A stretch of 61,268 bases of DNA, taken from positions 1-61,268 of IMG/VR virus record IMGVR_UViG_3300036791_000423; one strand, 5' to 3'. Below the pieces are notes generated by a model. It searched no databases. It was not told the origin of the DNA and saw nothing but the letters and a program-made list of their open reading frames with translations. Made by a program: the position numbers and the translations under genes. This DNA is from a virus. This document shows, piece after piece, positions 10,963 to 28,555 of the stretch (the stretch's first letter is position 1; each line of letters begins with the position of its first letter).

Positions 10963-11121
10963 ATGTCGAACAATGATTTCATTTGCGAAGATTGCAAATA
11001 CCATGTCTACGGTTTCGGATTCAAGAGAGACGCAAAGCTTTGCGTCAATTGTCAATGGCTCAAAGATCATCCAGACGCATCAGAAGAAATCAAGGCAATC
11101 ATAAGAGGAGAACGCAAATGA
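10963..11121 (+). CDS. Small zinc-ribbon protein
   Basis: 52 residues with CEDC and CVNC pairs spaced about 18 residues apart, a four-cysteine zinc ribbon. GGGAGGTGAC site 7 nt before the ATG. First gene after a terminator and ATGA-coupled to QueC, so it heads the deazaguanine operon. It might assist DNA recognition, but that is inference. Confidence 0.7.
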   Translation: MSNNDFICEDCKYHVYGFGFKRDAKLCVNCQWLKDHPDASEEIKAIIRGERK

Positions 11122-11885
11122 CTTCAGCGCTAGTGATTCTGTCCGGTGGCCAAGACTCAACGACATGCCTTTACTGGGCCAAGCAATATTACGACAAAGT
11201 GCATGCGATCACCTTTGACTATGGCCAGCGGCACCGGCGCGAGCTTGAAGCCGCGTTTCTGATTGGCCATATGGCCAAGACTGATTCGCATGAGATTTTA
11301 CCAATAGGATCGATACTGGCAGGCAAATCACCGCTGACCGATCATTCGCAGCCACTTGAGACCTATTCCGATTACGCGTCTATGGACAAGATCATCGGTA
11401 ATCGTGTCGAGCTGACATTTGTACCAATGCGCAACGCATTGTTTCTGACACTGGCAGCCAATCGCGCTGCGGTGCTTGACATCCAAAACATCATCACAGG
11501 CGTATGCCAGCAGGACAATGCCAACTACCCTGACTGTAGATTAAGTTTTATCCGCAGCATGCAACAAACGATCAACGAGGCGCTTGGCTTGGATTACACC
11601 ATGCGTATCATCACGCCATTGATGACCTTGTCCAAGGCTGACAGTATCCGCATGGCGATGGAACTACCCGGTTGTATGGATGCCTTGGCCTATAGCCATA
11701 CTGCTTACGACAATGCGTATCCGCCCAATGGCAGGGACCATGCTTCAACACTGCGCGCCCAAGGCTTTTTGGAAGCCGGTATCCCCGATCCGCTGATAGT
11801 CCGCGCAGTGTTTGAAAACCTGATGGACCTTCCGGCAGGGACAAATTATGATGGCTTGCGCACCATCGCAGTCAAAGGGGAATAA
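11118..11885 (+). CDS. queC: QueC-like 7-cyano-7-deazaguanine synthase, zinc site lost
   Basis: 255 residues, normal length for QueC, which uses ATP and ammonia to convert 7-carboxy-7-deazaguanine (CDG) first to the amide ADG and then to the nitrile preQ0. The PP-loop is intact (SGGQDS, residues 9-14), as are DYGQRH and PMRNALFLTLA. The C-terminal zinc motif, usually Cys ... CGxCxxC, here reads A196 ... NGRDHAS (N204, D207, S210). All four cysteines are missing while LRAQGF and GIPDP around it are conserved. The enzyme may be altered or may stop at ADG. ATGA overlap with the preceding ribbon gene fixes the start. Confidence 0.85.
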   Translation: MTSALVILSGGQDSTTCLYWAKQYYDKVHAITFDYGQRHRRELEAAFLIGHMAKTDSHEILPIGSILAGKSPLTDHSQPLETYSDYASMDKIIGNRVELTFVPMRNALFLTLAANRAAVLDIQNIITGVCQQDNANYPDCRLSFIRSMQQTINEALGLDYTMRIITPLMTLSKADSIRMAMELPGCMDALAYSHTAYDNAYPPNGRDHASTLRAQGFLEAGIPDPLIVRAVFENLMDLPAGTNYDGLRTIAVKGE

Positions 11886-11888
11886 CCC

Positions 11889-12248
11889 ATGATCCAGATC
11901 ACCCGCCGCTATCACTTTGAAGCCGCGCATTTCCTGCCCAAGGTCCCTGAAGGCCATAAGTGCAAACGCATGCATGGCCACAATTATGAGATCGAAGTCA
12001 CCGTCGCCAAGCCGCTAGGTAAAGACGGCTTCCTGATGGATTTCGCGGACCTCGACAAGCTGGTACAGCCAATCATTGACAAGATTGATCACCGCACGCT
12101 CAATGACATCAAAGGTCTTGAAAATCCAACGGCTGAACTGATCGGTCAGTGGTTTATGGACAAGCTGGCCAAGCATGATGTGCATGGTATAAGAGTGTAT
12201 GAGACAAAAGATTGTTGGAGCACAATCTGGAGGCCAGCCGATGAATGA
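11889..12248 (+). CDS. queD: QueD, 6-carboxytetrahydropterin synthase
   Basis: 119 residues, full length. Converts dihydroneopterin triphosphate to 6-carboxy-5,6,7,8-tetrahydropterin, step two of 7-deazaguanine synthesis. Zinc histidines and catalytic cysteine are present: HFEAAHFLPKVPEGHKCKRM followed by HGHNY. The downstream DFADLDKL, IDHRTLNDI and GLENPTAE blocks match E. coli QueD closely. Starts 3 nt after the queC stop and overlaps folE by 8 nt. Confidence 0.9.
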   Translation: MIQITRRYHFEAAHFLPKVPEGHKCKRMHGHNYEIEVTVAKPLGKDGFLMDFADLDKLVQPIIDKIDHRTLNDIKGLENPTAELIGQWFMDKLAKHDVHGIRVYETKDCWSTIWRPADE

Positions 12249-12831
12249 ACTGGATGATGAGCGAAATCAATTCGCTATCAAAACACTGCTAAAATTTATC
12301 GGCGAAGACCCAAACCGCGAAGGCTTGCGGGATACGCCTGCTCGCGTCATGCGTGCTTGGCGCGAATGGGCCACCGGCTATACTCAAGACCCGGCAACCA
12401 TCCTTGCGCGGACCTTTGAAGATGGCGCGCAAGACTTCAACGAAATGGTGATCGTGCATAACGCACCGGTCATCAGCAAATGCGAACACCATTTGGCTGA
12501 CATCATAGGCCATGCCCATATCGGCTATATCCCAAAAGGCAAGATCGTAGGCATTTCAAAGCTGGTGCGGCTGGTGGATTGCTTTGCCCGTCGATTACAG
12601 GTCCAAGAACGGCTTACGACGCAGATTGCCGACGCGATTATGCAGCACCTCGAGCCGATTGGAGTGGGCGTGCTGGTACGAGCATCGCATGCCTGCATGT
12701 CAACGCGTGGTGTCAACATCCAGCGCTCGGTGACGACCACATCGGCCATGCGCGGTGCGCTGATGGACAAGCCGGAAGCGAGAAAAGAATTTCTGGACCT
12801 ATGTGCAATGGCGGAAAAAGAAGTTCAGTAG
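12241..12831 (+). CDS. folE: GTP cyclohydrolase I
   Basis: 196 residues. Opens the guanine ring of GTP to give dihydroneopterin triphosphate, the entry step for 7-deazaguanine. Key parts are visible: NREGLRDTPARV, the zinc/catalytic CEHH, PKGKIVGISKLVRLV, RRLQVQERLT, and the second zinc cysteine in CMSTRGV with SVTTTSAMRG. The start at 12241 follows GGAGGCCAGCCG and overlaps queD. A phage copy presumably boosts flux beyond the host folate enzyme. Confidence 0.92.
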   Translation: MNELDDERNQFAIKTLLKFIGEDPNREGLRDTPARVMRAWREWATGYTQDPATILARTFEDGAQDFNEMVIVHNAPVISKCEHHLADIIGHAHIGYIPKGKIVGISKLVRLVDCFARRLQVQERLTTQIADAIMQHLEPIGVGVLVRASHACMSTRGVNIQRSVTTTSAMRGALMDKPEARKEFLDLCAMAEKEVQ

Positions 12832-12843
12832 GGGAGTGATCAT

Positions 12844-13836
12844 ATGCGTATCTATCTGGCAGGCTGGTGGCATGTCGGCAACGCCATCGGAACCAACATC
12901 CATCAGTATAATCTGCATACCGTGCGGTATCCGTTTCATCTCGAGTCGTTCCATTACATGGACCGGCAAATCATTCAGCAGGCCCGCATGGCACAGACCA
13001 AGATGTTCTTGGACAGTGGCGCATTCAGCGCCATGACACAAGGCGTAAAGATCAACATCAAGGCTTATGCCAAGTTCATCCAAGGCAATCAGGACATCGT
13101 CGATTTCGCTTCCAATCTTGACGATACCACCAAGACCGAACAGGTAAGTTACGACAATCAAAAGTATCTGGAAGGTGCAGGCTGCCAAGTCAAGCCGGTG
13201 TTCCATTGTCGCGAAGACGAGAAATGGCTGCGCCGCTATATCGACGAAGGTTACGACTACATCCTGTTGGGCGGCATGGTCCCAGAAACCACCAAATGGC
13301 TAATCGGCTGGCTTGATCACCTTTGGCATCACTACTTTACTAAATCAGATGGTACCGCACGGTTCAAGGTTCATGGTTTTGGCTTGACCAGTCTACCGCT
13401 GATGTATCGCTATCCATGGTATAGCGTCGATTCGTCATCATGGGCACAGACCGCCAAGTTCGGCGGTGTCCTGCTTGACATCATGCAGCCTGATGGCAGC
13501 TATAAGGATTACAACATCGAGTTTTCCGACAACACCGCCAGCCGTTATAATCTGCACGGCTGGCACTATTGGAGTTTAAGCAAAGATGAGCAGCGGACAA
13601 TTGAAAACCGCTTGGCCGAGATGGAGGAAGCACGCCATAAAAATCCTGAAATCGAAGACCGCTTGGCGGTGATGATGAAATGCAAACAAGGCTTCTACCC
13701 CGAAGCTTTGGCCAAATCTTACGGCTGGCGCATGTATGCCAATCTGGAATATTTCCGCCGTGCCATGGAACGCCGCGTCACAACGTTTCGTCGTAAGCAG
13801 GATACTCTGTGGGACCACTTTGGGAGGACCGGATGA
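12844..13836 (+). CDS. dpdA: DpdA-like DNA 7-deazaguanine transglycosylase
   Basis: 330 residues of the TGT-like fold. DpdA-type enzymes swap guanine in DNA for a 7-deazaguanine base. Signature blocks: FLDSGAFSA (D57, a candidate catalytic or base-binding aspartate), SNLDDT, VFHCRED, YILLGGMVPE, FKVHGFGLTSLPLM and YSVDSSSW (D196). This matches the phage group of DpdA proteins rather than the bacterial tRNA TGT. The location right after queC-queD-folE says the pathway product goes into phage DNA, probably to block restriction. The C-terminal about 70 residues are helical and less typical. Confidence 0.88.
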   Translation: MRIYLAGWWHVGNAIGTNIHQYNLHTVRYPFHLESFHYMDRQIIQQARMAQTKMFLDSGAFSAMTQGVKINIKAYAKFIQGNQDIVDFASNLDDTTKTEQVSYDNQKYLEGAGCQVKPVFHCREDEKWLRRYIDEGYDYILLGGMVPETTKWLIGWLDHLWHHYFTKSDGTARFKVHGFGLTSLPLMYRYPWYSVDSSSWAQTAKFGGVLLDIMQPDGSYKDYNIEFSDNTASRYNLHGWHYWSLSKDEQRTIENRLAEMEEARHKNPEIEDRLAVMMKCKQGFYPEALAKSYGWRMYANLEYFRRAMERRVTTFRRKQDTLWDHFGRTG

Positions 13837-14009
13837 TGCCGGGAAGTGTAGGTCGAGCAAAGAAATCCGTCGAACAGATCATGGATCGCTTAGATGAGTT
13901 TCAAGGCAAGCACCAAGATGATATGGCCATGCTTGAACTATCAGCTATCATCAGAGAGCTTGCTTTTACACTCCAACATCTATTGGAAAGCGCGAGGGAG
14001 CCGCAATGA
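13833..14009 (+). CDS. Small hypothetical helical protein
   Basis: 58 residues from ATGATG at 13833, which overlaps the dpdA stop (ATGA), with GGGAGG upstream. Helical and amphipathic (KKSVEQIMDRLDEFQ; MLELSAIIRELAFTLQHLLE). Overlaps the next ORF by ATGA. Might serve dpdA, only by proximity. Confidence 0.6.
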   Translation: MMPGSVGRAKKSVEQIMDRLDEFQGKHQDDMAMLELSAIIRELAFTLQHLLESAREPQ

Positions 14010-14227
14010 AAGATGAAAAACAAATTGATGCTTCGATTGCACGCCAGTTATCGCGTTCAATGATGAAAAACGCCAAGCTGACTGCTCGGCTGCACGCGCT
14101 ACGGGCGGTTGTCGAAACCGTCAGAACGACTCTCCCGGATAATCTTGTTTGGGACAATCCTTTACGTGACCTTTGCACCAAGGCATTGGAAATCGATAAT
14201 ACGTTAGCCGAGAAGGAAGACCTATGA
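14006..14227 (+). CDS. Small hypothetical helical protein
   Basis: 73 residues, ATGA-coupled on both sides. Helical with a coiled-coil-like middle (NAKLTARLHALRAVVETVRT) and an acidic end. No family recognised. Confidence 0.6.
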   Translation: MKDEKQIDASIARQLSRSMMKNAKLTARLHALRAVVETVRTTLPDNLVWDNPLRDLCTKALEIDNTLAEKEDL

Positions 14228-14457
14228 TCAAGCAATGGATCGAAGATCGATGCGTGCGCTGGCTTGCATCGCGCGGCTATCACAGCATAAGAGTGGGCGT
14301 GCCATATCTGATCATGACCTATGCTACGGGTACTTTTCATGATGTTTACGATGGCACGGTTTATACGATCCACATGCCGAAAGGACATAAACGCGTGGCA
14401 TTGCTAAACACGGTGCTTGTGCCAGACAAGCCGCCACCGATGCCGAGGAAAAAATGA
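14224..14457 (+). CDS. Small hypothetical protein
   Basis: 77 residues, ATGA-coupled. Begins KQWIEDRCVRWLASRGYHSI, then beta strands, ending KPPPMPRKK. No family recognised. It leads directly into the clamp-like gene with a further ATGA-type overlap. Confidence 0.6.
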   Translation: MIKQWIEDRCVRWLASRGYHSIRVGVPYLIMTYATGTFHDVYDGTVYTIHMPKGHKRVALLNTVLVPDKPPPMPRKK

Positions 14458-15422
14458 AACAATCGCTCAAATGGATCACTGATGCGATCAGTACCAAGGA
14501 TGTGGCGCATGGCATGTCGCATTACAAGATTGCCGAGCGCCAGATACGCGCGACCAATGGCCGCTTGATTGCGGCGCACCCGTGGCCAGCCGACGGAAGC
14601 TTCGTCGTACCGGGTGATGAGTTTGAAAAGCTTGTTGGCCGCATGCCGGAAGAACCCACGATCAAAATCAATGACAACAGCATCACTGTTCGCGCCGGAC
14701 GCTACCATGGCACGATCAATACCCTTAGTCCTGATGCATGGATACAACCGGGTGTCGATGAAGCTGATTGGAAAAAACTGCCACCGCGGCTGTTGCCTGT
14801 CCTGCATGCACTACGCCCATTCGTCAGTGACAATGCCATGCAGCCATGGGCGGACTGTATCGCGCTGGAAAACAATTGGGGATACGCCACCAACAATGTG
14901 GCCTTGGCTGGCGCACATTGTCCCGGCCTCGGCAAGATCATGGCGCTACTGCCATCATGGGCGGTTGACTTTATCCTGACAAGGGAAGAAGGAATCACTG
15001 ATTGGGCTTGGACGGCAAACTATGTTGCTTTTCGCTGGCAGAACAATGCTTGGCTACGATCGACGCTGGTGATCGGACAATTTCCAGAGCGCGCGGCCGA
15101 ACTGGTGCGATCAAGTCTTGATGAAAAACCATCGCAGGAAATCAGTGATGATTTTCGCAAGGCCTTTAACAGTGTGGCGCATATGGCCGAGGACACGATC
15201 GAAGTGCATGCCGACAAGATGGTAGCACGTTTCAAGCAAGCCGAAGTCATTGCTGAGATCGAATGCGAAGTGCCCAATGGCTGCAAGTGTTCGATATGGG
15301 GAGCAACTTACCTGGTACCGGCGATTAACTCAGCAACACATTGGCAACCTAGTCTATGGCCGAAGCCTGTTCCGTTTAAAGGTGACATGGTCAGCGGCTA
15401 TGTCGTCGGCAGACGAATGTGA
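14454..15422 (+). CDS. Probable beta-type sliding clamp
   Basis: 322 residues. Weak but repeated resemblance to bacterial DnaN: SHYKIAERQIRATNGRLIAA (like the ATDGHRLA region), SFVVPGDEFEKLVGRM, INDNSITVRAG, then a second block TLVIGQFPE (like the FPD motif) and DTIEVHADKMVARF. Length is near that of a clamp subunit (about 370). It would tether the family A polymerase at 17560. Alternative: another phage protein of similar topology; a structure prediction would settle it. Confidence 0.55.
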   Translation: MKQSLKWITDAISTKDVAHGMSHYKIAERQIRATNGRLIAAHPWPADGSFVVPGDEFEKLVGRMPEEPTIKINDNSITVRAGRYHGTINTLSPDAWIQPGVDEADWKKLPPRLLPVLHALRPFVSDNAMQPWADCIALENNWGYATNNVALAGAHCPGLGKIMALLPSWAVDFILTREEGITDWAWTANYVAFRWQNNAWLRSTLVIGQFPERAAELVRSSLDEKPSQEISDDFRKAFNSVAHMAEDTIEVHADKMVARFKQAEVIAEIECEVPNGCKCSIWGATYLVPAINSATHWQPSLWPKPVPFKGDMVSGYVVGRRM

Positions 15423-15438
15423 ACACTGGTAGATGTGA

Positions 15439-15520
15439 TCAGGTTTGAGTGGTTCCTTTCCTGATTTAGTCTGCCAGCTAGGAGGCGGTGGTGGGTAAGT
15501 ACGCCGCCGCCTCCGACCTT
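15439..15520 (+). promoter_or_regulatory. Two-hairpin leader before queE
   Basis: ATCAGG ... CCTGAT (15439-15464) is followed by a stronger 11-bp stem GGAGGCGGTGG / CCGCCGCCTCC (one G-U) about 20-50 nt before the ATG at 15537. AACAGGAGAAATAAAA is the ribosome site. No U-tract. Confidence 0.5.
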
Positions 15521-15536
15521 AACAGGAGAAATAAAA

Positions 15537-16235
15537 ATGCACGGAAAAAATCATATAGAAAGAGTGAAACATGACGAGGGCATGGAATTGCATGTTGTCA
15601 AAGGTAGTCCGTTTCTCACTATCCAAGGCGAAGGGCCATATATCGGATATCCGGCTATCTTCATTAGGCTGCATGGTTGTCATCTACGTTGCGTATTTTG
15701 CGATACTGCTTTTGATGATGCCGACGACCCGACTTGGACCATCTACGATCTTGTCGGCAAAATCACCCGCATTTGTAAGCTTGCCAAACTTGTCGTCATC
15801 ACCGGCGGCGAACCCATGCGGCAAAACATCAAACCACTATGCCAACAATTATGCGGCAACGGTTTCCGCGTGCAAATAGAAACCGCCGGAACATTTTGGC
15901 TGGATGGCATCGAAAAATATGCCGATATTGTCTGTTCGCCCAAGACACCGACAATCCACAAAGAGGTATATCGTCATGCCAGAGCCTTCAAATATGTCAT
16001 CAGTACTGGACAGATTTTCGACGATAGCTACCCTGTACCAATTACAGCGACGCAACCGGAAGCGCGGCCGAACCGGCTGGCGTTGCCGCGCCGCGGTGCG
16101 GCGGTTTATCTTTCGCCGATGGACGAAGGAGATGAAACCGCCAATGCTGCCAATCGTAAACTCGTCGGCGAACTCGCCATTCGATTCGGAGTCATCGCCG
16201 GAATCCAATTGCACAAATTTATAGGTGTCGAATGA
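15537..16235 (+). CDS. queE: QueE, 7-carboxy-7-deazaguanine synthase
   Basis: 232 residues, radical SAM enzyme that turns carboxytetrahydropterin into 7-carboxy-7-deazaguanine. LTIQGEGPYIGYPAIFIRLH precedes the iron-sulfur motif CxxxCxxC (C48, C52, C55; GCHLRCVFCDTAF), then VVITGGEP and QIETAGT. All match known QueE. It is separated from queC/D and folE by the dpdA-clamp stretch and has its own leader, so it may be independently expressed. Start at 15537 is set by AGGAGAAATAAAA. ATGA overlap with the next gene. Confidence 0.92.
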   Translation: MHGKNHIERVKHDEGMELHVVKGSPFLTIQGEGPYIGYPAIFIRLHGCHLRCVFCDTAFDDADDPTWTIYDLVGKITRICKLAKLVVITGGEPMRQNIKPLCQQLCGNGFRVQIETAGTFWLDGIEKYADIVCSPKTPTIHKEVYRHARAFKYVISTGQIFDDSYPVPITATQPEARPNRLALPRRGAAVYLSPMDEGDETANAANRKLVGELAIRFGVIAGIQLHKFIGVE

Positions 16236-24315: not shown

Positions 24316-24350
24316 GGCGGGAGGGCGCAAATGCCTCCCGCCGCTTTTTT
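24316..24350 (+). terminator. Intrinsic terminator
   Basis: GGCGGGAGG / CCTCCCGCC stem with loop GCGCAAATG, then GCTTTTTT. It ends about 20 nt before the ATG at 24372, so it either isolates or attenuates that gene. Confidence 0.85.
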
Positions 24351-24371: not shown

Positions 24372-25079
24372 ATGGCACGAGCAAAGAAAACATTGTCCGC
24401 CGACGTAGTGCAGCTAACCCAAACCCAGCGAGCCGCAAAGCAAGCCGCTACACCAAAGCCTGAAACCAAGGTCGTGATCACGCCGCCCAAGCTGGCCACA
24501 GCCACTGTCACTATCATCGGCAAAGCTCCCTATCTGCAAAACCGCTTTTCATCCGACAATCGTGACAAGATGATGGAGGCGCAAAAGGCTGGTAGCGCGG
24601 CCAAGAAAACCCGCAAGGCCAAGGCACCCAAAGACTTTGAAAAGGTCTATCGCGGTTCAATGCATGTATCGCAGGATGGCTGGCACGGCATCCCTTGCAC
24701 TGCCTTACGGAACGCCATGATCGACGCGTGCCGCTTGACCGAGATGGACATGGTGCGCGCCAAGATGTGCATATTCATCGTCGAACAAGGCCGTGACAAG
24801 GAAAACCTCGAGCCGCTGGTAAAGATCGATGGTAAGCCGCAGATGCATATCGAACGTGTCAAGGTTGGTATGGGCAGCACCGACCTTGCCGCGCGTGCGA
24901 TGTTTGTCAAATGGTCCTCGACGTTTGAGATCACATGGGATGACGACGTATTCCATGCACAGGATATCATCAATCTATTGGCCCGTGCAGGCTGGCAAGT
25001 CGGCATCGGTGCCGGTAGACCATTCTCAAAAATGTCTGGTGGTACTGGCAAGGGGACCTTTGAGGTACGGCAGTCATGA
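24372..25079 (+). CDS. Conserved phage protein of unknown function
   Basis: 235 residues from the ATG at 24372 (AAAGGGAAATACC upstream). A Lys/Ala-rich N-terminus precedes beta-rich segments (ATATVTIIGKAPYLQNRF; GIPCTALRNAMIDACR; FEITWDDDVFHAQDIINLLA) and a Gly-rich end (GIGAGRPFSKMSGGTGKG). The order (strand, then PxxALRNAM helix, then glycine-rich GxGRPxS loop) reads like a conserved single domain, possibly nucleic-acid-binding, which I cannot name. It heads a four-gene overlap run to 25918. Confidence 0.7.
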   Translation: MARAKKTLSADVVQLTQTQRAAKQAATPKPETKVVITPPKLATATVTIIGKAPYLQNRFSSDNRDKMMEAQKAGSAAKKTRKAKAPKDFEKVYRGSMHVSQDGWHGIPCTALRNAMIDACRLTEMDMVRAKMCIFIVEQGRDKENLEPLVKIDGKPQMHIERVKVGMGSTDLAARAMFVKWSSTFEITWDDDVFHAQDIINLLARAGWQVGIGAGRPFSKMSGGTGKGTFEVRQS

Positions 25080-25363
25080 CCGCACACGACGAAGGCTTTA
25101 TTCCCGACGGTACGATGTGGCTGCAACCCAAAAATACGTTGCCGCGCATCGAGCAGCTATGGGCCATTGTATCGGTGGACGCCCAAGATGGTAACGAAGG
25201 CGTCTGCGCCGCCATGATCGGTGGCGTAATCATGCCGCTGATTGCCGCTGACGAAAAGCGGCTCGAACAGATTGTGCCGATTGCGAAAGAAGTCGCGGCC
25301 GAGACCGGCACAAAGTTTAAGCTGGTAAGGTTTAGCAATCGCGAGGAGGTATCGGACATATGA
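25076..25363 (+). CDS. Hypothetical protein
   Basis: 95 residues, ATGA-coupled both sides. Beta-rich with QLWAIVSVDAQDGNEGVCAA and TKFKLVRFSNREEV. No known family. Confidence 0.65.
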   Translation: MTAHDEGFIPDGTMWLQPKNTLPRIEQLWAIVSVDAQDGNEGVCAAMIGGVIMPLIAADEKRLEQIVPIAKEVAAETGTKFKLVRFSNREEVSDI

Positions 25364-25803
25364 GTATCGAAAAGGAACTACTTGGCTTGATGAACGCCGA
25401 AGGCCTGATCGTGGCCGAGGCAGCCGAAAAGTGGGCGGCGAGTCATCGGCAATCGGACCTTGCCAAACAATTGGAATGGGACAACCGGGTAGCTGGCAAG
25501 CAATACCGGATCAATCAAGTAAGGCAATTGATCGTAAGCCTAAAGATCACAATGGGCAACGGTACCAAGCGGTTCTATTCGCTGTCCATCGATCGCGGTA
25601 ACAAGAAAGGCGGTGGCTATCGCGATATCGGCGATATCATGAAGTCCAAGACACTTTACGATATATTGCTTCAGGATGCACTTAACGATTTGCAGCGCAT
25701 GCAGGAGCAGTATGAACGCTTGCGCGAGCTGCAACCGATATGGAAGGAGGCCGAGAGGATCAGGAAACGAAAAAAGACCAAGGAGGACCGCGCCAATGTT
25801 TAG
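25360..25803 (+). CDS. Hypothetical protein with basic coiled-coil end
   Basis: 147 residues. N-terminal helices, a short basic middle (RFYSLSIDRGNKKGGGYRDI), then a long coiled-coil (DALNDLQRMQEQYERLRELQ) with a Lys/Arg end (RIRKRKKTKEDR). Likely nucleic-acid-associated. Overlaps both neighbours. Confidence 0.65.
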   Translation: MSIEKELLGLMNAEGLIVAEAAEKWAASHRQSDLAKQLEWDNRVAGKQYRINQVRQLIVSLKITMGNGTKRFYSLSIDRGNKKGGGYRDIGDIMKSKTLYDILLQDALNDLQRMQEQYERLRELQPIWKEAERIRKRKKTKEDRANV

Positions 25804-25918
25804 ACGCTGGTGCTGTTTCTGGTTCCATTATCCTTTCTATCAGGTAACCAGAACCGATGTCTGCACAACGCAAATGCATTGCAGCTATTGCGATCGTAGC
25901 TGGATTGTCTTGCACTAG
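25796..25918 (+). CDS. Small Cys/Trp-rich zinc-type protein
   Basis: 40 residues (starts MFRRWCCFWFHYPFYQVTRT). Later CSYC gives a possible zinc pair with the N-terminal CC. AAGGAGG lies upstream. Last gene of the plus arm; the pentamer array begins at its stop codon. Confidence 0.6.
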   Translation: MFRRWCCFWFHYPFYQVTRTDVCTTQMHCSYCDRSWIVLH

Positions 25919-27180
25919 GCAGGCATAGCAGTTCTTTGCCGAGCTGAGCTGTGATTAGTCTAGCAAAGCGGAGCTGAACATAGCCCAGCAGGCAAAGCGG
26001 AGCAACTCAGGGCCACTCGTCACCGAGCTTAGCCTAACCCTGCTCGCCCGTACCCTGCACATCGTGTCAGCGCTTAGCAGTGCAGGCCAAGCTCTCCATA
26101 GCTAAGCCGAGCTTGGTACTGGCGGTGCGCAGTAAAGCAGGCTAAGCTAAGCGAAGCCACATGGAGCAAAGCCCAGCACAGCAGGCAAAGCCAATCAGTG
26201 CAAAGCGGAGCGGTGCGGTGTCAAGCTTGGCTTAGCGGGCAGAGCTTACCTAGGCTGACAACGGCGAAGCGGTGCAAGGCAGGCATGGCATGGCATGGCA
26301 TGGCGTAGACGGTCCTTGCGATCTATGTGCGTGGCCCGGCTAGGCAGGCCAAGCCAAGCATAGTATACCAAGCTTAGCGTAACCGAGCAGAGCAGGCCGT
26401 GCATGGCACAGCCGATCTTGTCCGTGCATAGTCGAATCAAAGCGATGACCAGCGGAACTTGGACCGGCAAAGCAGGCGCAGCAAATCCAAGCGGAGCCTG
26501 TTACATCGTAGCGAACTGAAGCCTAGCATGGCAGGCGAAACTGAACAAAGCGCAGTCCAACCCGGCGGTGCTGAGCGTCTCTGACCACAACTGAGCGCGA
26601 CACGGCACAGCAGGCAAAGCACTTTACGGCTTAGCGTAGCTTGACGTTACACTGTCCTGCCGAACCGTCCTGAGCAGAGCAGGCTATGTGATGATATGCG
26701 AAGCGTTTCGATGCGAAGCGGATCGTGGCTAAGCAGGCCAAGCGAACCACAGCAGATCGTAGCCCAAGATGCATAGTGAAGCCGCTCACTGTTAAGAACG
26801 GCCGAGCTAGGTATAGCAAGACGAAGCCAACCGCTGCGAAGCGATGCATAGCAGGCATGGCATAGCTTCACTAGTCAGAGCGTAGCGTGGCCGATCTCTG
26901 CAAGCCGGACCAAAGCAAAGCTGGCCCAGCAGAACAAGTCCCGGCCCTGTCGTGCTGATCAGTGTACTGCCCGACAAATTCGAGCGAGACCGGGCAATGC
27001 GCAGCAGGCCAAGCTAAACTTAGTAGTGCTTGATCTGGCAGTGCTTGGCAAAGCAGGCACGGCAATGCAAGGTCGCGCCGAGCCCGATCAGGCCCATCGT
27101 GGCCCAGCCTAGCTCAGCAGGCATGGCACAGCTCCGCATCCAGTACAAAGCGAAGCGAAGCTTGTCATCGCAGCGCAATG
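25919..27180. repeat. GCAG/GCNNN pentamer-phased array, left block
   Basis: No convincing gene. GCAGGC occurs exactly at 25919, 25988, 26082, 26137, 26181, 26279, 26344, 26392, 26472, 26531, 26610, 26679, 26733, 26851, 27004, 27053 and 27117. Between these markers the sequence reads as successive five-base units that mostly begin with GC (GCTAA, GCGAA, GCAAA, GCCCA ...). Each marker contributes a four-base unit GCAG that resets the phase, so spacings are typically 4+5n. A degenerate marker GCGGGC at 26235 splits the 98-nt gap into 54 and 44. GCATG is repeated four times at 26283. Confidence 0.85.
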
Positions 27181-27190
27181 CTGGCATATT
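27162..27190 (+). promoter_or_regulatory. Candidate promoter inside the array
   Basis: TTGTCA (27162-27167), 17-nt spacer, CATATT (27185-27190), 32 nt before the ATG at 27222. The spacing is good and the -10 box is weak. Confidence 0.35.
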
Positions 27191-27221
27191 AAACTTCAAG
27201 CGACCAAAGCAAGGGAGCACC

Positions 27222-27395
27222 ATGATGAAATACAAATTATTTGTCGTCTTGGCGTTGTTCTCCGCAATATGCTTGATCACTGGTTACATGCTATCACGAG
27301 ACCAAATGTCGGCGTGGGCACTGCTGGCTTTTATACTCAGCAGTTGGTTCGCGCTGTCATTTGGTTTTATGGTTGGATTGTTTGGTGCAAGGTAA
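27222..27395 (+). CDS. Small two-pass membrane protein inside the array
   Basis: 57 residues, MMKYKLFVVLALFSAICLIT as first membrane helix and ALLAFILSSWFALSFGFMVG as second, short charged turn (RDQMSA) between. AAGGGAGCACC precedes the ATG. The array repeats stop about 100 nt before it and resume 2 nt after its stop. It is the only credible gene in 25919-28520. It resembles holin-like or immunity-type small phage membrane proteins, without a specific match. Confidence 0.6.
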   Translation: MMKYKLFVVLALFSAICLITGYMLSRDQMSAWALLAFILSSWFALSFGFMVGLFGAR

Positions 27396-27396
27396 A

Positions 27397-28517
27397 GCAG
27401 GCTTGGCATAGCGGAGTGACGTTGAGCATAGTCAAGCGAAGCAGGCAATACAGTGCTAAGCTCGGCTGACTATGCTATGACCAGCGAAGCAGGCAGTGCA
27501 TAACCTAGCGACACCCGGCGTGGCAAAGCGCTATCAGCAAATCAATGCGTTGCAGGCTTAGCCTTCCAAGCCAAGCACGGATCATCACAGCGTAGTTATG
27601 CTCTGTCAAACCAAAGCAGGCCGAGCACTGCCCAGCATGCCTCGGCAAACATGGCGGTGCATATCCATGCTAAGCTGAGCAGGCTATGCGAAGCCACGTT
27701 GTTCTGTGCGGAGAGGAGCATGTCAAAGCACGGCTCGACCATGCAGGCGTAGCCCAGCTAGGCCGAGTGGAGCACGGCTTGGCGCATTCCTAGTTGAGCA
27801 AAGCTGAGCAGAGCTGGCGAGGCATTGCTAGGCTAAGCCTTGGCATCAAAGCACAGCAAGGCAATGCCTAGCAGGCCGAGCTTGGCTTAGCCGATTGGTG
27901 CGGTGCGCGGCATAGCGGAGCAGGCTAAGCTTGACAAATCCTAGCAAGACAGAGTCAAGCGGCGTCTGGTGGAGCCCAGCAAGGCAAGCAATGCGGTGCT
28001 TTCCGGAGCGCTGCAAAGCCCGATAGGTCTCAGCGATGCAGGCGAAGCGGAACGCTGCCAAGCTTTGCCAGACATTGCGACGCGTAGCAGGCACAGCCTT
28101 GCTAAGCGAATCCCGGCACTAACCAGCCTAGCACAGCAGGCCCAGCCCAGCGTACCGAATCGTTGCCCGGTGCTGCATACCAGTGTTCTGCAAAGCGAAG
28201 CTATACAAAGCAGGCATAGCCAAGTTGCACGCACCATTGCTGTGTTCAGCACACATATCGTAGCAAAGCAGGCTCCGCAGTTAAGCGCCTTCGGCATTGT
28301 AAAGCTCTGCATGACCTAATCCAAGCGGTGCAGTGCCCAGCGGAGCAGGCTAAGCCAAATCGCTCGAGACTAAGCAAAGCTTGCCGGAGCACAGATGAGC
28401 GAAGCTGTGCAGGCGTAGCGAAGCGCGATATAGTAAAGGGTGCTTTGCCGAACGGCGCAATGCCGAGCAGGCTAAGCGAAGCGTACAAAAAGCCTAGCTT
28501 AACACTGCTTAGCAGGC
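27397..28517. repeat. GCAG/GCNNN pentamer-phased array, right block
   Basis: Exact GCAGGC at 27397, 27441, 27489, 27552, 27616, 27679, 27743, 27871, 27920, 28038, 28087, 28136, 28210, 28268, 28345, 28409, 28467 and 28512. From 27489 to 27871 the markers recur every 63-65 nt, counting a degenerate GCAGAGC at 27808. 28038-28087-28136 are exactly 49 apart. Several segments are fully in phase, for example 27679-27743 (8 of 12 units begin GC) and 28038-28136 (14 of 18). Apparent ORFs here have no ribosome sites and are phase artefacts. Confidence 0.85.
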
Positions 28518-28520
28518 ACA

Positions 28521-28555
28521 AAAAAGGCGTTGGACCGGGAGGCTGGCCCAACGCC
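28521..28555 (-). terminator. Intrinsic terminator of the late operon
   Basis: On the minus strand, GGCGTTGG / CCAACGCC stem followed by TTTTTT. It ends the long minus transcript 24 nt after the last gene and immediately before the array, so late RNA should not enter the array. On the plus strand there is no U-tract, so early transcripts could pass through. Confidence 0.85.

Follow-up and report, generated by a model that had tools for sequence, protein, structure and literature searches.

The DNA analysed here (the window) is a stretch of 61,268 nt, the viral record IMGVR_UViG_3300036791_000423, and its gene content includes tail-sheath, portal, terminase, DNA polymerase and queuosine-pathway genes. 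The last of these, queC-, GTP cyclohydrolase-, queuine-transferase (DpdA)- and queE-like genes at 10983-16235, probably provide a 7-deazaguanine DNA modification, carried by the phage as a separate anti-restriction trait. When 30 window ORFs were scanned against PHROGs, no cas gene appeared. The subject of this study is a plus-strand region from 24372 to 28520 that holds a gene for a RAMP-like protein, a small ORF, a conserved partner gene and a long array of pentamers.

Genes and array at the locus

The first gene (24372-25079) encodes a 235-aa protein that its family profile and the fold matches of its AlphaFold2 model place with the RAMP/Cas7-like proteins. We call it vipr after VIPR (Viral Interference Programmable Repeat), described only in 2026 (bioRxiv 2026.04.26.720920; PMC13142463), a phage system that silences genes by means of a RAMP protein, an accessory protein and RNAs made up of 9-16 YNNGG repeats (PMC13142463). 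The profile of its family (A1, 77 sequences) matches PDB entry 36pp_D, 'SUSP1 Vipr protein', with an E-value of 1e-14; all 77 members match phrog_4652, and G207, G211, R216 and G228 are invariant among them. With the AlphaFold2 model of the window protein (pLDDT 91.4) as the Foldseek query, all 50 matches listed were chains of CRISPR RAMP complexes (Csm3/Cas7-type subunits), and structural comparison gave a VIA Z of up to 12.2. Entry 36pp was absent from the fold-search matches, so the Csm3/Cas7 result is independent of it. A Pfam search gave nothing usable for this protein or for its partner. The model predicts a single RAMP with a Csm3-like fold, in keeping with VIPR, whose Vipr protein is a single RAMP that has an RRM core and a glycine-rich loop. 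The ORF is open from 24297, and its start was set at the ATG that follows a terminator hairpin and a ribosome-site-like stretch. That hairpin (24316-24350), read from the sequence as strong, GC-rich and followed by a T-run, lies immediately before the start codon, where it might separate vipr from the operon 5′ of it or attenuate vipr within that operon.

A small ORF of about 95 aa (25076-25363, plus strand) shares ATGA overlaps with both of its neighbors, vipr and a 147-aa partner gene (25360-25803, plus strand), and these overlaps suggest that the three form a translationally coupled operon. The partner protein is phrog_15946-like and mostly helical; its AlphaFold2 model has a pLDDT of 93.8, and a fold search of the PDB returned no match with E below 4. 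Searching the phage protein collection with the window sequence found no homolog, and a relative's partner gene served as the query of that collection instead. As a conserved gene that adjoins vipr, present in 83 of the 120 listed array-pattern loci, it is a candidate vap (vipr-accessory) gene; the published accessory genes are vap1-6 (PMC13142463). A 40-codon ORF lies 3′ of it, and the array starts directly after that ORF.

The array, which we regard as a vrRNA (guide) array, occupies 25918-28520 on the plus strand and consists of 2.6 kb of GCNNN pentamers, with the 4-mer GCAG opening each cassette. Thirty-five GCAGGC markers, with none on the opposite strand, open cassettes built from (A/G)GC-NN units. 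The 5-nt phasing far exceeds chance: a second GC stands exactly 5 nt after the first in 178 of 373 cases, whereas the flanking sequences on either side give 195 of 2169 and 189 of 2374 (8-9%), and the GC autocorrelation remains in phase past 120 nt. The scaffold is loose. Among 194 in-phase units, 119 start with GC (61%), 60 keep one of the two bases and 15 keep neither, and 17 of 34 cassettes are out of 5-nt phase end to end. Only the GCAG marker, 4-6 nt long, recurs between cassettes, with no invariant 3′ tail visible. Tandem Repeats Finder reported no array at 25.9-28.5 kb, Rfam had no match, and at the DNA level neither the array nor the structural region had a homolog in the phage collection. 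Within the array, at 27222-27395, is a 57-aa ORF that looks membrane-like and has a separate ribosome site, found at the same place in a close relative (L002); array units start again at its stop codon. A hairpin at 28526-28555 (fold -22 kcal/mol, T-run on the minus strand) closes the array. It is common to the array end and the leftward lysis and structural operon, and is the terminator of that operon, possibly a bidirectional one.

A search pattern of 18 fixed bases, taken from array DNA alone, matched at least 120 viral stretches. Ninety-nine of the 120 listed loci encode a member of the vipr family (93), of the partner family (83) or of both, on the array's strand in 99 of 99 and at a distance below 1 kb in 98 of 99. 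Among 211 control loci fetched with unrelated patterns, the vipr family occurred in 1 and the partner family in 0. Neither gene is found in 21 of the 120 listed loci, some of which are contig ends or may be chance matches. The units of many listed loci are almost perfect GCNNG or GCNNA, and many relatives have GGC-NN units at 90-100%. Named carriers of the gene pair with arrays are Gordonia phage Ecliptus, Cyanophage Cy-LDV1, Mycobacterium phage Brocalys and a Rhodoplanes serenus phage-plasmid. Their neighborhoods differ: in Ecliptus the array and genes lie among tail genes, and in Cy-LDV1 and Brocalys an excisionase gene follows them.

Some of the fetched loci have features of their own. In Mycobacterium phage Gorge (L125, 3173-4390) both families match a single annotated ORF of 405 aa, gp54, and the stretch between the two matches looks out of frame, perhaps through a frameshift or an annotation artefact. 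At L009 (5832-5965) the unit GCACC ends each cassette just before GCAG, which suggests that in some systems the unit at the 3′ end is fixed. Pentamer arrays at L044 (850-1950) and L085 (7850-8650) came with no Vipr or partner gene detected in the fetched stretch; the L044 array is nearly perfect and, with its repeated blocks, may be a different kind of repeat.

Decoded guides and their matches

The NN pairs of VIPR guides read DNA with one base skipped, usually the third base of a codon (PMC13142463). We decoded the window by the rule NNxNNx, in which the NN of each pentamer pairs with DNA and a single base of the target is left unread, and the scans of large collections were done at this one-base skip. 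Six window guides were scanned, and two gave convincing matches, one was ambiguous and three had no target.

The first convincing guide (28136-28209, plus strand) has 14 NN units. Read antisense, the first 12 give S[FL][DE]L[IM]AGTSTGG; the full decode on the opposite strand is [FL]YS[FL][DE]L[IM]AGTSTGG. We take G.S.GG, here GTSTGG, to be the active-site motif of patatin-like phospholipases. Scanning with a core of 16 fixed bases gave 60 viral matches, 31 of them with G.S.GG at the site. These 60 matches alone are no proof, because other 16-base scans gave 2, 11, 12, 28 and 98. Stronger evidence comes from the genome scan with the first 12 units (24 fixed bases), which returned 7 matches where base counting expects about 0.002 in 257 Gb, and all 7 exact matches fall in SFDLIAGTSTGG of patatin genes. 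A scan with 13 units gave no match, and no perfect match over the full length was found. With 11 units and at most one mismatch, 1 of 149 genomes of one phylum matched, the one already known. PADLOC matched 9 of 9 tested patatins to CBASS phospholipase effectors, and the patatin of L253, an exact match to the first 11 units, adjoins a CBASS cyclase (E 1.6e-116). This cyclase and phospholipase pair (L253, 8601-12057) lies on a viral contig, with a nearby HTH gene that weakly matches capH. The L002 counterpart of the guide begins one unit earlier, and the extra unit reads [IM], Ile being the residue after GTSTGG in many matches. The counterpart mismatches at the codon for serine, and for leucine it takes the alternative codon box.

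The second convincing guide (26610-26678, plus strand) has 13 NN units and a sense decode of [NK]TT[FL]V[FL]VTPRR[CW]. Among its 11 core matches, one, in a PD-Lambda-4-like gene of L334, fits all of the first 12 units over 12 consecutive codons (KTTFVFVTPRRW), when only about 2e-4 of the 11 would be expected to have 8 further matching bases. The last unit fails, and there is no perfect full-length match with all 13. The target gene encodes 1358 aa with an HTH and matches PADLOC PD-Lambda-4_A (E 1.1e-7 over about 110 residues). In its vicinity are a type II pair of methyltransferase and restriction enzyme and also a type IV enzyme, and relatives of the gene occur in L329 and L328. Both convincing matches are in frame, with the skipped base at the third codon position. 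Because both begin at the first unit after GCAG, we infer that GCAG is a guide boundary.

Guide 26472 (26472-26530, plus strand, 11 NN units) has one exact 22/22 match, in L164 (AKHGLTVDDLM), and is ambiguous because the motif is common, with 98 core matches of which one is exact. Guides 26531, 25919 and 25988 gave chance matches only (12, 28 and 2 core matches in the 16-base scans). The decode of guide 26531, VVA[HQ]V[HQ]T[HQ]PGGA[FL][HQ]S, resembles a JAB/MPN motif; its match to 30 JAB genes was no better than that of controls, and 148 genomes of another phylum contained no match at up to 3 mismatches. As a control on skip length, 431 clean guides, 386 of them unique with at least 7 units, were scanned against 1.2 Mb. 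At 10 or more units and 3 mismatches there were 15 matches at skip 1, compared with 2, 3, 6 and 4 at skips 0, 2, 3 and 4; a stricter threshold left 2 at skip 1 and 0-1 at other skips, with up to 3 for reversed guides. A further skip scan was dominated by loci fetched with the guides' own patterns and was left out as evidence.

The most economical reading of these two guides is that the phage would silence immune genes carried by the host or by prophages resident in it, here those for a CBASS-type phospholipase and a PD-Lambda-4-like protein. An alternative that keeps VIPR, and is compatible with it as the main explanation, holds that the true targets are competing prophages or satellites and that the immune genes are incidental cargo or chance. 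We consider this an even bet. Satellites and prophages are reported as VIPR targets (PMC13142463), phage tail-like genes lie upstream of the target gene in L334, 31 patatin sites are in viral contigs, and the 22/22 match of guide 26472 is in a short L164 ORF that looks by eye like a tail-assembly gene. On the other hand, both convincing targets score as defense genes (PADLOC CBASS phospholipase and PD-Lambda-4_A), and one stands beside a type II restriction-modification pair while the other, in L253, stands beside a CBASS cyclase.

Cassette lengths and inheritance

An earlier note on this DNA had drawn attention to 27489-27871 and proposed a selected 64-nt repeat of GCAG plus twelve pentamers. 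The plus-strand GCAGGC markers at 27489, 27552, 27616, 27679, 27743 and 27871 are indeed there, giving cassettes of 63, 64, 63, 64 and 128 nt, and the further spacings it listed at 26279-26344 (65), 27053-27117 (64) and 28345-28409 (64) are correct. Its division of the final interval into 65 and 63 nt depends on position 27808, which is not GCAGGC but a look-alike, GCAGAGC. A 64-nt period did not hold up. Only 7 of the 34 marker intervals are 63-65 nt; the 34 range from 44 to 153 nt, apart from one of 280 nt with the small gene inside. The run of four 63-65 nt intervals is weakly unusual (permutation p = 0.021, or 0.033 for any length, both post hoc), and the evidence for a 64-nt higher order is weak. 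Across all parsed arrays, under a lenient parse that took in some false arrays, complete cassettes most often contain 9 pentamers (49 nt), next 10 and then 8, and cassettes of 12 (64 nt) rank sixth. In the homologous stretch of L002 a 63 has become 69, one 64 has become 44 through a 20-nt loss, and single-base indels are present; such spacing-destroying indels in relatives were what the earlier note itself had said would refute the repeat. Since cassette lengths vary and the L002 stretch is spaced otherwise, a spacing of 64 nt simply reflects the size of a guide with 12 pentamers and no selected period or twelve-unit cycle.

Two further suggestions of that note survive in part. Phase and length are kept while content differs, as it had argued, but the content is guide information and is not free, because it is shared between relatives and matches conserved gene motifs. 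An oligomeric binder was also anticipated, and the array appears to serve such a protein, a Cas7-like one being encoded next to it; it does not, however, come with a twelve-unit cycle, as cassette lengths vary.

The arrays of the window and L002 are homologous but rearranged. Common blocks are about 82-98% identical and mostly bounded by AGCAGGC at their start or end, and other blocks are unique. Cassette 27679 has NN counterparts in L002 (1453) and in L025 (5120), whose Vipr is 86% identical. Guides common with L025 keep 17/18 to 22/24 NN bases with a scaffold at about 57-61%, and between L002 2487 and L025 5253 the NN agree at 18/18 and the scaffold at 16/27; these cases were chosen on their NN. 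When blocks were chosen by total identity, NN conservation was not clearly above that of the scaffold, which was equal or higher in wide blocks. Under neutral choice NN exceeded the scaffold in the better blocks only, with the scaffold aided by its fixed consensus. The first syntenic comparison had found no excess NN conservation (p = 0.26).

Three explanations that dispense with guides were weighed, and each struck us as very improbable. TRAP sites, iterons, microsatellite decay and a replication terminus had all been dropped as candidates once the RAMP gene appeared. An iteron or centromere-like array acting at the DNA level, bound by the neighboring protein for partition or replication, would fit the many short phased repeats between two convergent modules and a cumulative GC skew that peaks about at the array. 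That peak also tracks gene orientation, however, the arrays and genes occupy different genome neighborhoods (Ecliptus, Cy-LDV1, Brocalys), and the decoded NN match coding motifs, all of which leaves little room for it. Equally slim is the chance that the binder is a ring protein, TRAP-like or otherwise, that takes up twelve pentamers in every 64-nt cycle. It would account for the pentamer phasing and the local run of 63-64 nt intervals, but cassettes run from 44 to 153 nt with a mode of 9 units across systems, and the neighboring protein is a RAMP by profile and fold. TRAP sites have a KAGNN signature, and the base before GC in the array is most often A (177/373). A functionless, decayed pentanucleotide microsatellite would suit the 61% retention of GC in in-phase units and the first NN test (p = 0.26), but is hardly credible given that the same two genes are linked to 99 of the 120 listed loci, that GC is retained above other dinucleotides between the window and L002 (0.874), and that relatives carry the same NN on a different scaffold, with decoded gene motifs.

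A probable VIPR system and a possible programmable counter-immunity

We conclude, with a probability of roughly 0.92, that this region is an array of guide RNAs belonging to a VIPR system that the phage encodes. The tandem pentamers with a constant triplet and variable NN are present as (A/G)GC-NN units, loosely kept in the window, and targets consistent with a one-base skip are seen for 2 of the 6 scanned guides. Counted against this reading are the 4 of 6 guides without a clear target, the loose scaffold compared with a strict GGY, the 17 of 34 cassettes out of phase and the 21 of 120 listed loci without either gene.

The closest known relative is VIPR type II of SUSP1 and Pseudomonas fulva, which likewise combines a RAMP protein and pentamer guide RNAs with variable NN in a phage, has an accessory gene to which the partner gene may correspond, and shares the one-base-skip code, the skip at the wobble position and targets on both strands. 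In contrast to the strict GGY/NN of type II, the window scaffold is AGC/NN and loose; its cassettes, about 34 in one array, run head to tail and are set off only by GCAG; and the structured invariant 3′ tail that follows each repeat tract in type II was not found in the window. Because it has no invariant tail, we do not file the array under type II. Seven types of VIPR are distinguished, and for some of them 'staggered arrays with overlapping vrRNAs' or 'a related consensus' is described (PMC13142463); these descriptions may cover the architecture seen here. Targets given in PMC13142463 are satellites, prophages and viral sequences, whereas the apparent targets of the window are immune genes, which as VIPR targets are found neither in the main text of PMC13142463 nor in the literature searched. 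Relative to that main text, the loose AGC/NN scaffold, the GCAG-delimited cassettes without a tail and the apparent immune-gene targets are new.

More distant systems share single features. The window Vipr has the predicted fold of the Class 1 CRISPR subunits Cas7 and Csm3. Class 1 effectors form a filament on the guide RNA in which bases are skipped regularly, and by analogy with VIPR (PMC13142463) the window protein may do the same. Unlike Class 1 CRISPR, the window has a 5-nt period with only two bases read per unit, and no identical direct repeats with unique spacers. TIGR-Tas also has phage-associated arrays of short tandem guides, but it reportedly uses a Nop-type protein and contiguous paired spacers, and the window protein has a RAMP fold.

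Following the VIPR preprint, we propose that the array would be transcribed and processed into guides, presumably at the GCAG boundary, that Vipr subunits would coat each guide, one per pentamer, and that the NN pairs would bind double-stranded DNA and silence the bound genes. We further speculate, at somewhat less than even odds, that the VIPR array serves as programmable counter-immunity. Its guides would be aimed at conserved catalytic codons of anti-phage effectors (the GTSTGG of CBASS CapV-type phospholipases, the PD-Lambda-4-like protein and perhaps a JAB protease), and one guide could cover many alleles because synonymous third positions are skipped. As part of the same tentative proposal, guides would be inherited by their NN content while the scaffold drifts, and swapped as GCAG-delimited cassettes.

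Raw sequence is enough to read the one-skip code, even when the AGC/NN array is loose, and a simple DNA signature finds VIPR loci in large numbers. The apparent natural targets named here, CBASS and a PD-Lambda-4-like protein, belong to bacterial immunity. If confirmed, this would mean that phages carry a reprogrammable system for silencing host defenses, and that reading their arrays may show which defenses matter in nature.
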